Source of the DNA: Rhodanobacter sp.
GTDB lineage: Bacteria > Pseudomonadota > Gammaproteobacteria > Xanthomonadales > Rhodanobacteraceae
Length of the DNA stretch: 64,000 nt
Direction of reading: 5' to 3'
NCBI GenBank assembly: GCA_004322005.1
Contig: SCRF01000044.1
Coordinates: 1 to 64,000, forward strand
In this document: positions 3,213 through 49,925 of the stretch, piece after piece
Position numbering within the stretch: the stretch's first letter is position 1
Layout: every line of letters starts with the position of its first letter
Program-made: the position numbers and the translations under genes
The notes under the pieces: model-generated
The model's database searches: none
What the model saw: the letters and a program-made list of their open reading frames with translations, nothing else
What the model was told of the DNA's origin: nothing

Positions 3213-3734
3213 ATGTCCATCAACGTGATCATCGCCGACATCACCCAGCTGCGCGTGGATGCGATCGTCAACGCGGCCAACCCCACCTTGCTTGGCGGTG
3301 GCGGGGTGGATGGCGCCATTCATCGCGCGGCCGGGCCGGCCTTGCTTGCCGCCTGCCGCGCACTGCCCGAATCCGCGCCGGGAGTGCGCTGCCCGACCGG
3401 CGAGGCCCGCATCACGCCGGGCTTCGCCCTGCCTGCTCGCCATGTCATTCACACCGTGGGGCCGATCTGGCGGGGCGGCGCCCACGATGAACCGGCACTG
3501 CTCGAAAGCTGCTACCGCAACGCGCTGCAGCTGCTGTGCACCTGTCGATTGTCCAGCATTGCGTTCCCGGCCATCAGTTGCGGCGTGTACGGCTATCCGC
3601 CGGCACTGGCGGCGGAGGTGGCCATCGCCACGCTGCGCGACGAGCTGGCCCGCTCTGCGTCGATCGACGTGCGGCTGTGCTGTTTCAGCGAGGCGATGCA
3701 CGCGATCTGGCAGCAGGCGCTCATCGCAGCTTGA
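3213..3734 (+). CDS. Macro domain protein (ADP-ribose / O-acetyl-ADP-ribose deacetylase-like)
   Basis: Single macro domain of 173 residues, related to E. coli YmdB, binding ADP-ribose derivatives and often removing acetyl or ADP-ribosyl groups. The signature is complete: DAIVNAANPTLLGGGGVDGA (ligand-contacting Asn and Gly loop), HVIHTVGPIWRGG, and the distal loop FPAISCGVYGYP. I chose the ATG at 3213 because the conserved strand INVIIADITQLRVDAIVNAA begins there; upstream codons in frame belong to the antisense of the marR gene. Its last 14 bases overlap the 3' end of batD on the other strand, a convergent overlap. Confidence 0.94.
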   Translation: MSINVIIADITQLRVDAIVNAANPTLLGGGGVDGAIHRAAGPALLAACRALPESAPGVRCPTGEARITPGFALPARHVIHTVGPIWRGGAHDEPALLESCYRNALQLLCTCRLSSIAFPAISCGVYGYPPALAAEVAIATLRDELARSASIDVRLCCFSEAMHAIWQQALIAA

Positions 3735-5433
3735 ACGGATACAGCGGTGGCAGACCATCCGTATCGGCATCCGCGTGATCGTCCCGGCGCCAGACGAAGC
3801 CATGCTTGAACAACCCGGCCACAGCCGCACCGTCGTCGGCCACCGGCGCACCGGCGTAATGCCGCTGCTGCAGGGCGGCGATGGCCGCGCGTTGTTTGTC
3901 GTCGCCCAGCATCGCCGCCAGTTCGCCCAGATGCTGGATCGCCGGTCGCTCGGCACGCGCCCAAGCCAGCAGGGTACGCACCTGCGCCGCCGTGTCGGCG
4001 CGCATGGCGGCATCGAGGAACGCCTGCTGGCACTGGCGCGCCGACGCCGCGTGCAGCACCGCGGGTATGGCGGCCGACGGCGAGCGGCCATGGCCACGCC
4101 ACCACCACCATCCGAGCAGGCTCAGCAGCCACAAGCCGATGCTGCCCAGCGCCAGCCAGCGCCAGGGCACGGCGCGGGTCGCTACCGTCGTCGCCGGGGG
4201 CGTGGCACCCGGGGCGTTCGTGGCTGCCGCAACGGCCGGGGCGGATGGATGCGCGGCCATCCCGCCGATCGCAGGCAACACGGTCACGCTGTGTGCCGGA
4301 ATCTGCGCCACTTCCATCCGGTCGCTCAGCACGTTCCACCAGTTCAGGGTGATTGCCGGAACCGTCAGCGTGCCGGCTCGCTCGGGCACGATCGCAAAGG
4401 CCTGCTGGCGGTGACTGACGAGCCATGGTCCGGCATCGCGGGTGCCGGTAACCGGCTTGTCCGGATACACCGTGGCGCCATCCAGCGACGGCAGGCTCAG
4501 TGTCGGCAAGGCCTCGAATGGCAGGCCGGTCGCCTGCAGGTTCAGCGTGACGTTCAGCGGCTGTCCCACGCGCACCTGGGCACCTGAGCCCGCGCCCGGC
4601 CAGCCATCCAGTGTCAGGCTCAACTGGCGCGCCGGCAGCCAGGCGGCATTGCCCCAATCGGCCGGGGCCGCGCGCACCTGGACCGTCTGCGCCGGCGCGC
4701 GGGCCGAGACCGGCGTACTGGCGCCGAAGAAACTGTTGGGGTCGTTCGGATCGACCGCGTCGCCCTGGAAATTCAGCGCCGGGATATCGATCTGGCCGGC
4801 ATGCTGCGGCACCAGCGCATAGCGGCGCTCGAGCACGTGATACTGGCGGCCGCCGCGTTCGGCGTCGTAGTTCAGGTCGTTGCCGACCCGGCTGACGTCC
4901 ATGCCGTCGACCTGTGGCGTATCCAGCGACCCGCCGCTGATATTGACCGCGTAATACAGCCGCACGACATAGCTCAATTGCTGGCCGACGTAAGCCTGGC
5001 GCGGCTCGACCTGCGCTTCCATGAAGACATCCGCGCCGGCGGATGCCGCCGCCGTCGGACTGGCTGCCGTCACATGCAACTGCAACGGCGCAGTCTGACT
5101 GCCAGCGACGGTGAGCGCAGGAATCTGCAGCACTCCCTCGTGCCGGGGACGCAGCGCGACGCCGAAGGTCAGGGTCGAGGTCGCGGTGCCGTTGACGATG
5201 CTGAGACTGCTGTTCTGGGACGTGCCGAGTATCTCGAAATCCTTGTTCAACGCACCGAGATCGGGTGCCTGGACGTTCCCGCTGGAATGGTTCACGCGCA
5301 CGTTCAGCGTCACCGTGTCGCCCAGCTGCACGCTGTCGCGATCCAGCGTGGCCTGCACGTCGGCGGCCCGACCGAGCGCCGGAAGCAGCAGCAGGGCCAG
5401 CAACCCGCATCGGATGATTCGTCGAAACATCAC
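3721..5433 (-). CDS. batD: BatD-like protein (oxygen tolerance / Bat operon)
   Basis: BatD is the membrane-anchored periplasmic member of Bat operons. The 570-residue protein has a signal peptide (CGLLALLLLPALGRA), an Ig-like repeat region typical of BatD (ATLDRDSVQLGDTVTLNVRV near residue 30; later LDTPQVDGMDVSRVGNDLNY and PAITLNWWNVLSDRMEV), an Ala/Pro/Thr-rich linker, one membrane helix around 420-440 (WLALGSIGLWLLSLLGWWWW) and a cytoplasmic tail. Its ATG overlaps the stop of the upstream VWA-TPR gene by four bases. It is the last gene of the operon; its end overlaps the macro-domain gene. Biochemical function is unknown for the family; Bat proteins are linked to stress and aerotolerance. 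Confidence 0.9.
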   Translation of the reverse strand: MMFRRIIRCGLLALLLLPALGRAADVQATLDRDSVQLGDTVTLNVRVNHSSGNVQAPDLGALNKDFEILGTSQNSSLSIVNGTATSTLTFGVALRPRHEGVLQIPALTVAGSQTAPLQLHVTAASPTAAASAGADVFMEAQVEPRQAYVGQQLSYVVRLYYAVNISGGSLDTPQVDGMDVSRVGNDLNYDAERGGRQYHVLERRYALVPQHAGQIDIPALNFQGDAVDPNDPNSFFGASTPVSARAPAQTVQVRAAPADWGNAAWLPARQLSLTLDGWPGAGSGAQVRVGQPLNVTLNLQATGLPFEALPTLSLPSLDGATVYPDKPVTGTRDAGPWLVSHRQQAFAIVPERAGTLTVPAITLNWWNVLSDRMEVAQIPAHSVTVLPAIGGMAAHPSAPAVAAATNAPGATPPATTVATRAVPWRWLALGSIGLWLLSLLGWWWWRGHGRSPSAAIPAVLHAASARQCQQAFLDAAMRADTAAQVRTLLAWARAERPAIQHLGELAAMLGDDKQRAAIAALQQRHYAGAPVADDGAAVAGLFKHGFVWRRDDHADADTDGLPPLYPFKLR

Positions 5434-22538: not shown

Positions 22539-22624
22539 GGCTTTCATCCAGTAAAGACGGCCGGTCACCGGCCAGGAAAAGCGCGTGCGGCAACACGGGC
22601 CACGGCGCGTGAAACAGGAGCGAG

Positions 22625-22724
22625 GAGCGAGGAGCGAGTGAAGAGGAGTGAGAAGTGAGAGAAGAGCTTCGGGCTGGGCACTCTCACTCCTCACTTCTCA
22701 CTCCTCTTCACTCACTCCTCGCTC
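22625..22724. repeat. 35-base inverted repeat built on GGAGCGA 7-mers, between queE and queC
   Basis: Arms 22625-22659 and 22690-22724 are reverse complements with one mismatch in 35, enclosing a 30-base loop. The outer edge begins as tandem GGAGCGA units (three copies from 22618). The right arm directly abuts the queE stop codon. In a queE-queC transcript it would form a very stable stem and could attenuate or stabilise the mRNA. Confidence 0.9.
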
Positions 22725-35222: not shown

Positions 35223-35231
35223 GGCGTCAAC

Positions 35232-35453
35232 GGGGCTCGGGACTCGGGACTTGTTTTTGTCGGGACTCGGGAAACGCACGGTGTACCGTACGCGTAGGAG
35301 CGAGCTTGCTCGCGATGCTTTTCACGAAGGTCATCGCGAGCAAGCTCGCTCCTACATGCCGCGGTCGATACCGCCGGGGGGCGACACGCAGCATGGGTGC
35401 TGCGGGCTGCTGATCGCCGAGTCCCGAGTCCCGAGTCCCGAGTCCCGACAAAA
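35232..35453. repeat. Nested palindrome: GGGACTC 7-mers flanking a REP pair
   Basis: The left side has GGGGCTC-GGGACTC-GGGAC then TTTTGTCGGGACTCGGGA (35255-35272). The right side has four copies of GAGTCCC (35419-35446) and the exact complement of that 18-mer (35436-35453). About 163 bases lie between the 18-base arms, including the REP pair at 35294. Situated between yebC and ruvC. Confidence 0.85.
35294..35355. repeat. GTAG-type REP pair, subtype B
   Basis: Inverted pair with ends GTAGGAGCGAGCTTGCTCGC; inner half-hairpin GCGAGCTTGCTCGC differs from subtype A but the GTAGGAGC end and GATGCT inner part are shared. Nested inside the 7-mer palindrome. Confidence 0.9.
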
Positions 35454-48218: not shown

Positions 48219-49925
48219 TCAATGCCAGCCTGACGTGATCGGATAACGCCGCTCGCGCCCGAACGCCCTGGTGGTCACGCGCGGCCCCGGCGCCGACTGT
48301 CGCCGCTTGAACTCGTTCTGCAGTACCAGCCGCACCACCCGGCGCACGGTGTCGACAGGAAAACCCTGTGCCGTGATCTCCGCCTGCGATTGCTCGGCCT
48401 CGATGAAACGGGCAAGGATGGCATCCAGCTGGTCATACGCCGGCAGCGAATCCTGGTCGATCTGGTTGTCGCGCAATTCGGCCGATGGCGCCCGCTCGAT
48501 CACTTCCGGCGGGATGGTCCAGGAGCCGGGACCGGGGACCGGGGACCGGGGACCGGCAAGGCTGTCGGTATCGGTGAGGCATCGCGCTTGCGCTCCGGTC
48601 CCCGGTCCCCGGTCCCCGGTCCCATTGCGCCACCGCGCCAGCTGGTACACCACAGTCTTGTAGACATCCTTCAACGGCGCATAGGCACCGCACATGTCGC
48701 CGTACAGGGTGGCGTAGCCGACGGCCATCTCGCTCTTGTTGCCGGTGGACAGCAGCAGACGACCATGCTTGTTGCTGAGCGCCATCAGCATCACGCCGCG
48801 CGTGCGCGACTGCAGGTTTTCCTCGGTGGTGTCGGCCGCCTTGCCGGCAAACGCCGGGGCCAGCGCCGACAGGAACGACGCGCAGGTCCGCTCGATGTCG
48901 ATGACGTGGTAAGCCACGCCGAGCCGCTCGGCCTGCGCGCGCGCGCCGTCCAGTGACAGCTGCGAGGTATAGCGGGTGGGCATCATCACCGCGGTGACCC
49001 GATCCGCTCCCAGTGCATCGACCGCCAGCGCCAGCGTCAGCGCCGAGTCGATGCCGCCGGACAGGCCCAGCAGCACGCCGGGAAAACCGTTCTTGTCGAT
49101 GTAGTCGCGGATGCCGCGCACCAGTGCGGCGTACAACGTCGCCGCAGGCGAGGCATCGGCGGCCACCGGCCAGTTCTGGGCATGCAGGGTGTGCGTGGCC
49201 GGATCGAACTCGGCCCACAGCAGCGCGTCGACGAAGGCCGGCGCCCGTGCCGCGATCGAGCCGTCGCCATTGACCAGCATCGACGCGCCGTCGTAGACCA
49301 GTTCGTCCTGGCCGCCGACCAGGTTGAGATAGGCGATCGCGCAACCGGTTTCGCGCGCCCGCGCCACCAATACCGCTTCGCGCCTGGCCTGTTTGGCGTC
49401 GTCCCAGGGCGAGGCATTGATCACCACGATCAGCTCGGCGCCGGCCGCCGCCGCCTGTGCCGCCGGCTCCGGCTGCCACACGTCCTCGCAGATCAGCAAA
49501 CCGACCTGTACACCGTCGATCGTCGCCGTGACCGTGCCGCGGCCGGACTGAAAGTAGCGCTTGTCGTCGAATACGCCGTAGTTCGGCAACGCCTGCTTGT
49601 GTGCCGTGACCTCGACCCGCCCCGCGCGCAGCAGGCTGGCGGCGTTGTACACCGCCCCCTCGCCGTGCGGATGGCCGATCAGCGCGGCGATGCCGCTGGT
49701 GCTGCTCGCCAGCGCGGCCAGTTCGCTGTCGCAGGCGGCCAGAAAACTCGGCCGCAACAGCAGATCCTCCGGCGGGTAGCCGCTCAGGGTCAGCTCTGGA
49801 AACAGCACCAGTCCGGCGCCGCCGGCGCGTGCCTGCGCGATCAGGTCGCCTGCCTTCGCGGCATTCGCCGCCACCGCGCCGACCGCAAAATCGAACTGGG
49901 CCAGCGCCAGACGCAGCTTTGCCAT
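48219..49925 (-). CDS. nadE: Glutamine-dependent NAD+ synthetase with in-frame palindromic insertion
   Basis: Two-domain NAD synthetase, 568 residues. The N-terminal nitrilase-like amidase (about 1-260) has Glu (LVLFPELTLSGYPPEDL), Lys (VTAHKQALPNYGVFDDKRYF) and catalytic Cys (VGLLICEDVW). The C-terminal ATP-PPase domain has GVLLGLSGGIDSALTLALAV and STGNKSEMAVGYATLYGDMC. Between LARWRN (434) and IPPEVIERAPSAELR (from about 475) where homologues have a short loop, about 40 residues read GTGDRGPGTGAQARCL... encoded by a 7-mer palindrome. The reading frame is intact, and both flanks are conserved, so the enzyme may tolerate it as a surface loop. Confidence 0.95.
   Translation of the reverse strand: MAKLRLALAQFDFAVGAVAANAAKAGDLIAQARAGGAGLVLFPELTLSGYPPEDLLLRPSFLAACDSELAALASSTSGIAALIGHPHGEGAVYNAASLLRAGRVEVTAHKQALPNYGVFDDKRYFQSGRGTVTATIDGVQVGLLICEDVWQPEPAAQAAAAGAELIVVINASPWDDAKQARREAVLVARARETGCAIAYLNLVGGQDELVYDGASMLVNGDGSIAARAPAFVDALLWAEFDPATHTLHAQNWPVAADASPAATLYAALVRGIRDYIDKNGFPGVLLGLSGGIDSALTLALAVDALGADRVTAVMMPTRYTSQLSLDGARAQAERLGVAYHVIDIERTCASFLSALAPAFAGKAADTTEENLQSRTRGVMLMALSNKHGRLLLSTGNKSEMAVGYATLYGDMCGAYAPLKDVYKTVVYQLARWRNGTGDRGPGTGAQARCLTDTDSLAGPRSPVPGPGSWTIPPEVIERAPSAELRDNQIDQDSLPAYDQLDAILARFIEAEQSQAEITAQGFPVDTVRRVVRLVLQNEFKRRQSAPGPRVTTRAFGRERRYPITSGWH
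48528..48623. repeat. 7-mer palindrome (GGGACCG)x4 inside nadE
   Basis: Four perfect GGGACCG copies (48528-48555), a 40-base centre and four perfect CGGTCCC copies (48596-48623): a 28-base inverted repeat. Total length of 96 bases equals 32 codons, which keeps nadE in frame. Confidence 0.95.

Follow-up and report, generated by a model that had tools for sequence, protein, structure and literature searches.

Convergent heptamer-array pairs in frame within nadE and other genes of Rhodanobacter and its relatives, spelled in genome-specific dialects

How does a perfect palindrome of tandem 7-base units come to lie in frame within nadE, a normally essential gene, and what has set its spelling there? 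The question is raised by a 64,000-nt stretch of Rhodanobacter sp. DNA (the window), in which a perfect inverted repeat occupies positions 48528-48623, its 29-nt arms being 100% complementary and its centre 38 nt long. A preliminary description of the same 96 bases had divided them into four GGGACCG units, a 40-base centre and four inverted units (28 + 40 + 28); on recounting they divide as 29 + 38 + 29. The features of the locus are given below.

48219..49925, minus strand: nadE, glutamine-dependent NAD+ synthetase, 568 aa (from ORF, Pfam and genome search)
48516..48623, minus strand: variable loop of 36 codons, from LARWRN (N434) to IPPEV (I471), both conserved (from the alignment)
48595..48623, minus strand: arm 1 in the gene's reading direction, GGGACCG x4 + G, coding strand G-rich
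48557..48594, no strand assigned: spacer, 38 nt, with inner junctions GGCAAGGC (plus strand) and GGAGCGCAAGC (minus strand)
48528..48556, plus strand: arm 2, the inverted copy, plus strand G-rich
48516..48527, minus strand: 12-nt flank GGCTCCTGGACC (GSWT), 10-11 of its 12 bases common to the relatives L002, L003 and L004

The nadE ORF stays open across the palindrome for all 568 codons and matches the Pfam families NAD_synthase and CN_hydrolase, in agreement with the earlier placement of the repeat in frame inside this gene. When the 14-mer GGGACCGGGGACCG was searched for with at most one mismatch, six matches were found in the window, all of them inside the nadE element, compared to a mean of 0.02 in 100 shuffles. 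This nadE is the sole one detected in the genome (96.3% complete): a search returned one full match, and the other matches were one weak match (residues 4-276) and two short ones that correspond to heptamer elements. The idea that the insert is harmless owing to a second nadE copy was rejected, as no such copy was detected in the genome at this completeness. Each arm contains four G3 tracts, and RNA folding of the palindrome region gave -100.1 kcal/mol vs. -70.8 kcal/mol for shuffles (z -6.5).

The preliminary description had credited the repeat with adding about 40 residues, a figure that proved too high: the N434-I471 loop totals 36 residues, vs. 5-18 in the 62 relatives that lack a palindrome or remnant. 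In the solved NadE relatives 5kha (Acinetobacter) and 4f4h (Burkholderia), only 3-4 residues lie between the aligned blocks. A fold search with NadE recovered NAD synthetases, with amidase-family enzymes further down. The AlphaFold model of NadE (32 sequences; mean pLDDT 73.6) gives residues 438-468 pLDDT values below 50; since values below 50 also occur at residues 112-126, 400-421, 479-491 and 537-568, the model goes no further than to suggest that the loop is disordered. The three relatives that share the GSWT flank (L002, L003 and L004) have GGGAACG-type arms, and the Trp of this flank may be native, given that a Trp codon is found at the same place in short loops too.

The alignment of NadE that the preliminary description had proposed was made with the own gene and the best 80 of 233 relatives, mostly from Rhodanobacter, Dyella and Frateuria. 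Heptamer arrays, judged by eye, flank exactly the nadE loop on both sides in 15 of the 81 genes (arm scores 9-29, L018 being the lowest); two further genes have degenerate arrays (L011 and L045), two have remnants (L012 and L032) and the other 62 have none. Altogether, 36 heptamer arrays were found in the 585 kb around the 80 nadE genes, 25 of which were inside the nadE loop. On a NadE tree of 546 columns, built by a quick method and with 26 of its 78 inner branches drawn open, the loop state changes at least 11 times when degenerate arrays are scored as present, gains and losses being indistinguishable. Scored in the same way, the insert was present in 16 of 21 heptamer-rich genomes (at least 40 hits) vs. 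one of 10 poor genomes, in a set of 31 genomes picked partly for having the insert; the single poor genome with it, G009 (L011), has five heptamer hits and degenerate arms. The loop of the nearest NadE relative, L001, consists of 6 residues and holds a GGGGAACGGGG stretch that may be a remnant. It should be noted that L001 and L005, with loops of 6 and 11 residues, are two nadE loci of one metagenome assembly (REEB220), which reflects either a duplication or a mixed bin.

Heptamer arrays are not confined to nadE. They were found at about 40 places in the own genome (41 places listed, four of them within the window), and a search for further coding 7-mer palindromes, also proposed in the preliminary description, identified in-frame copies between Pfam domains in uvrD (L098:2439-2580, with a further short palindrome at 3290-3318), in icmF (L102:2520-2713) and in the linker of a 2-oxoacid dehydrogenase E2 (L089:2450-2480). 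Together with single-copy nadE, these copies bear out the earlier view of a repeat that lies within genes, a normally essential one included, while keeping frame. The arrays at L092:7361 (ftsQ frame) and L095:2405 (argG frame) come ahead of any Pfam domain, and the true start may be downstream of them; a Pfam search with fourteen other ORFs overlapping or near heptamer elements returned no matches.

The arrays are also consistently oriented. Among neighbours within 250 nt there were 25 convergent pairs (8 in the own genome, 12 around nadE and 5 around uvrD), no divergent pair and one same-strand pair, the latter also around uvrD. The inner junctions are frequently GGCAAGAGC, GGAAGAGC or GGAAAGC, at 14 of the 24 ends of 12 own-genome elements vs. 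5.6% in shuffles, the elements having been picked by hand and the motif chosen post hoc. At the outer ends, flush direct repeats (within 3 nt) of at least 5 nt were found in one of the 12 elements, vs. 9.3% of random intervals. The main-dialect heptamers are stop-free in all six frames, as are 56 of the 64 GGGANNN sequences and roughly half of heptamers at large (a fraction of 0.51 in a sample of 3,000), a property that would ease their survival inside genes.

Other repeats were observed in association with the arrays. Arrays enclosed by a pair of inverted GTAG-type REPs (GTAGGAGCCCGCTCGCGGGCGATGCT or a variant of it) are located at L081:2480-2571, L084:2377-2468 and 4895-4988, L088:2399-2526, L090:2450-2535 and L097:2448-2532, and several of the REP-enclosed arrays have an AAAGAGC-like junction similar to the inner ends of the heptamer palindromes. 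At positions 35231-35448 of the window, convergent GGGACTC-type arrays enclose a GTAG REP dimer (35294-35355), while positions 22616-22724 form a palindrome of another heptamer type (GGAGCGA/GGAGTGA) with 35-nt arms, 34 positions of which match, and a AGAAGAGC junction.

Heptamer pairs occupy two uvrD loops, one near codon 245 and one near codon 490 of the own protein, in several of the 31 genomes; in other genomes the second loop has few residues or an unrelated palindromic repeat, SPLRGEGRGEG...PLPEGEG. This unrelated in-frame repeat (CCCTCTCCCC...GGGGAGAGGG and variants) was seen in L105, L110, L111, L114, L116, L132 and L133, being one-sided in L133. IcmF has three variable linkers. Of these, two contain heptamers in a subset of the 25 genomes compared, and two also take other repeats, including a GTAG-REP-like dimer in the own protein. 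In L102, codons 428-475 and 540-596 hold, in frame, a GTAG-REP-like dimer and a PSPPGRGTEGEG...PLSQGERGE palindromic repeat, and at the second of these places relatives have VIPAKAGIQ...GLRRND or AERSPQGEVEA repeats. The uvrD and icmF linkers accept palindromic repeats of several kinds. The icmF arms enclose a native segment of about 30 residues, which reads 27 in L145 and L147 because the motif used in the search ended three codons too soon. The left icmF linker measures 24-26 codons in five of the six filled genes and 34 in L160, vs. 20-28 in the 19 unfilled genes; the right linker measures 10-28 codons in filled genes (motif-corrected) vs. 8 in unfilled ones, with L158 and L159 reading 19 through the same early motif cut.

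The heptamer itself varies between genomes. Dialects were counted as double units in the 31 genomes (G000 being the own genome), with classes assigned by eye and in-gene sites counted in, so that self-counting matters for poor genomes such as G001. Double GGGACCR occurred 66 times in G000, once in G001 and never in the 29 others. Double GGGACTC occurred 312 times in G014, 16 times in G000, twice in G024 and never in the remaining 28, and double GGGAACG occurred 83, 62 and 83 times in G002, G003 and G024, respectively, and at most 20 times in any other genome. The more widespread GGGATTS and GGGAATS doubles, found in 19 and 22 of the 31 genomes, respectively, vary in their proportions.

At 28 of 36 sites, the arms inside genes were in whichever dialect dominates the genome concerned, compared to a shuffled mean of 10.6 and a maximum of 24 in 50,000 shuffles, a contrast that species kinship inflates and in which the near-private dialects of G000 and G014 carry much weight. 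By gene, the agreement was 11 of 15 for nadE, 5 of 7 and 6 of 8 for the two uvrD sites and 6 of 6 for icmF, and each of the eight discordant sites has a second dialect that is present in its own genome. The 36 sites leave out nadE of G019 (L045), G009 (L011), G010 (L012) and G016 (L032), the nadE remnant of G001 (L001), uvrD site 2 of G019 (L108) and G004 (L109), and the heptamers of the second icmF linker (L144, L145, L150 and L151). In G000, all four sites have GGGACC-type arms, the first uvrD site being the short palindrome, and in G014 all four have GGGACTC, the second icmF arm being eroded. The nadE arms also match their own partner better (mean 21.4) than the arms of other species (mean 15.2; permutation p 1e-5). 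The own arm is the best match in eight of 17 nadE loci, two of them by ties, and strict arm-to-arm copying as the only process was rejected as insufficient alone. These results suggest that the copies of a genome are rewritten together, each genome in its own version.

Comparison of the spacers, which were picked by hand, is informative as to where this might occur. Spacers from different sites or loci gave a mean z of 0.7-1.1, and those from one site across species gave 2.3-6.5. At uvrD site 2, the spacer of G017, whose arms are GGGAAT-type (the second being eroded), is homologous to those of G007 (z 12.4) and G013 (z 10.7), whose arms are both GGGATT-type. In nadE, L052 (GGGAAT) and L054 (GGGATT) have a common spacer (z 5.8), and the L052 spacer matches three of six ATT-class spacers. 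The right icmF arms of G000 and its nearest genome by NadE, G001, can be aligned over 48 nt ungapped, with equal length and place and a different dialect; the same G/T difference recurs in four of five units, and the stretch is 90.0% identical overall. Given the arms of different dialects around one uvrD spacer and the equal-length icmF arm in G001, some arms, in uvrD, icmF and part of the nadE set, appear from their sequences to have been rewritten in place. The case is weaker for the window's own nadE, because its spacer shows no kinship with the spacers of L002, L003 and L004 (z -0.4, 0.5 and 1.4), which are also mutually unrelated, and because the Trp codon of the common flank recurs in the short loops. 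Orthology of the window's spacer with these three, which was considered, is unsupported by the z scores; the spacer is weakly like two of 12 others (best z 3.1).

Several elements of this system have precedents. In Xanthomonas, GGGAATC / GGGNATC heptamers are dispersed genome-wide with a preference for four units, form convergent pairs (70 in one genome and 75 in another) and are 89-93% intergenic and 7-11% intragenic (Rehm 2015, PMC4692102). The arrays described here likewise have 7-base G-rich units of the form GGGANNN in tandem (at least two), are dispersed in the genome and are paired convergently. They differ in that several dialects are found here instead of one main heptamer, that they fill recurrent loops in frame and that there are signs of rewriting; moreover, Rehm's definition needs GGGAATC at least once, whereas the nadE array has GGGACCG, and the parts of that paper covered do not treat the intragenic heptamers as protein inserts. 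GTAG/CGTC REPs were described in frame in housekeeping and repair genes of bacteria including Xanthomonas and Stenotrophomonas, a UvrD/REP helicase gene among them, and recB of X. campestris and X. oryzae has a REP at about the same site (Di Nocera 2013, PMC3733652). To judge from the available parts of these two accounts, the preliminary description overstated the case in calling the nadE repeat new for Xanthomonadales, as both in-frame palindromic REPs and convergent heptamer pairs had been published.

The nadE element is nonetheless distinct from REPs as described there, which are 20-40 bp palindromes, single or in dimers, with a GTAG or CGTC end (PMC3733652): its arms are tandem GGGACCG heptamers and no GTAG/CGTC tag was found at the foot of its hairpin, although GTAG hairpins occur elsewhere in the genome. 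Nor was the Y1-type transposase expected in carriers of RAYT-mobilised REPs detected in the drafts G017, G020, G021 and G024. The earlier comparison with Rickettsia palindromic elements holds for the effect, in-frame decoration of unrelated genes, but not for the structure: as far as they are described in the parts seen, those elements form families of about 150 bp with a conserved peptide (PMC10969869, PMC3733652), while here the peptide shifts with the dialect and the icmF arms enclose about 30 native residues, so that they are no one-piece insertion. MITEs, in turn, have terminal inverted repeats moved as a unit and a target-site duplication; the elements here have inverted ends but gave no signal of flush duplication in 12 elements (within 3 nt of the ends), and in icmF the arms surround native sequence. 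Among the matches listed in a literature search, of which Rehm 2015 and Di Nocera 2013 were the nearest, none reported dialects of the heptamer or heptamer pairs lying in frame at recurrent coding loops. Heptamer arrays, convergent pairing, the four-unit preference and in-frame REPs are known, and the genome dialects and recurrent coding loops are apparently new, not having been found in the literature searched.

At the level of sequence, the presence of the element, its frame, its recurrence in the same loop across species, its convergent polarity and the genome-specific dialects are established, and so is the occurrence, in uvrD, icmF and part of the nadE set, of differing arm dialects around one and the same spacer. 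We give about an even chance to the reading that the element is a protein-coding, convergent heptamer-array pair of the Xanthomonas-type G-rich family that is recopied by host replication or repair. The basic piece is approximately (GGGANNN)4, often with a tail like GGCAAGAGC or GGAAAGC, and such pieces are placed in convergent pairs around a short DNA stretch, filling the NadE, UvrD and IcmF loops or linkers in frame and giving the enzyme an extra low-complexity peptide. A nascent strand might jump to another heptamer array, by ectopic template switching or by snapping back onto the other arm, so that arms would be recopied via host DNA replication or repair with no dedicated transposase, and purifying selection would retain only those outcomes in genes that are in frame and of tolerated length. 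The loop peptide is probably tolerated rather than useful. The simplest reading left would be that, during host replication and repair, strands switch template or short tracts are converted from one dispersed array to another, with selection keeping the frame.

Enzymes that might write or move the repeat were also considered. RVT_1 was found in nine of the 31 genomes, and Y1_Tnp in 24 of the 31, the own genome included, but not in the heptamer-rich drafts G017, G020, G021 and G024, absence from a draft being no proof in either case. A reverse transcriptase as the writer, in its simple form, was set aside given the former count, and a REP transposase as the necessary mover was set aside given that it was undetected in those four genomes. 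A dedicated heptamer writer, akin to telomerase writing telomere repeats, would be an enzyme or RNA with a template of its own; at a small gap it would extend each 3' end by about four GGGANNN units and a short tail, its template setting the dialect and rewriting copies everywhere, essential genes included. Such a writer would agree with the convergent polarity and the near-private dialects; with RVT_1 in only nine of the 31 genomes it would be of another kind, and we regard it as quite improbable.

Other explanations were weighed against recopying by the host. A palindrome mobile in one piece, MITE-like with ends of about four heptamers, might insert repeatedly, with the active copy of each lineage displacing older ones and tolerant loops being hit again. 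This would account for the common junction motif (14 of 24 inner ends, chosen post hoc), the 11 or more state changes on the NadE tree, the mere 6 loop residues of L001 and the unrelated nadE spacers of the window gene, L002, L003 and L004. It is at odds with icmF arms that enclose native protein sequence, with uvrD spacers, and some nadE spacers, that are common to different dialects, with the equal-length icmF arm in G001, with the absence of flush direct repeats at the outer ends of the 12 elements and with the fact that neither RVT_1 nor Y1_Tnp is common to all genomes; we therefore consider it possible but rather doubtful. Ordinary mutation might instead be selected towards the preferred heptamer of a species by a sequence-specific binding factor or by quadruplex or hairpin formation, which would agree with the strong RNA hairpin of the nadE region and with the quadruplexes reported, in the parts of the paper covered, for repeat oligonucleotides (Rehm 2015, PMC4692102). 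Almost every unit at several unlinked coding loci of a lineage would, however, have to acquire the same substitution, a regulatory role within enzymes is hard to picture, and L011 retains degenerate arms in a genome with five heptamer hits, all of which make this explanation unlikely.

That the same loops are filled recurrently could also mean that selection acts on the peptide, as a disordered insert of use to NadE, UvrD and IcmF, with the DNA repeat as a by-product. But the peptides vary with the dialect, the same loops of uvrD and icmF are elsewhere short or filled by unrelated repeats, and neither palindrome nor remnant occurs in 62 of the 81 NadE proteins, so we find this very improbable. 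An assembly or chimera artefact might be suspected in a draft genome of 136 contigs; as the site is filled with the frame open in other assemblies, including those of the named strains L004, L007, L008, L016, L033 and L052, its probability is close to negligible, and the wider pattern does not hinge on the window's copy.

Dispersed bacterial repeats are usually viewed as insertions that later drift apart. In the genomes analysed here, the copies inside genes are spelled as elsewhere in the same genome, and some sites appear to have changed in spelling while keeping their spacer and flanks. For annotators, a word of caution is that odd Gly/Arg- or Pro-rich loops in NadE, UvrD and IcmF are DNA repeats. 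The concerted evolution of very short repeats that these observations suggest, and the tolerance of essential enzymes for them, are directly testable in strains of Rhodanobacter and Frateuria.
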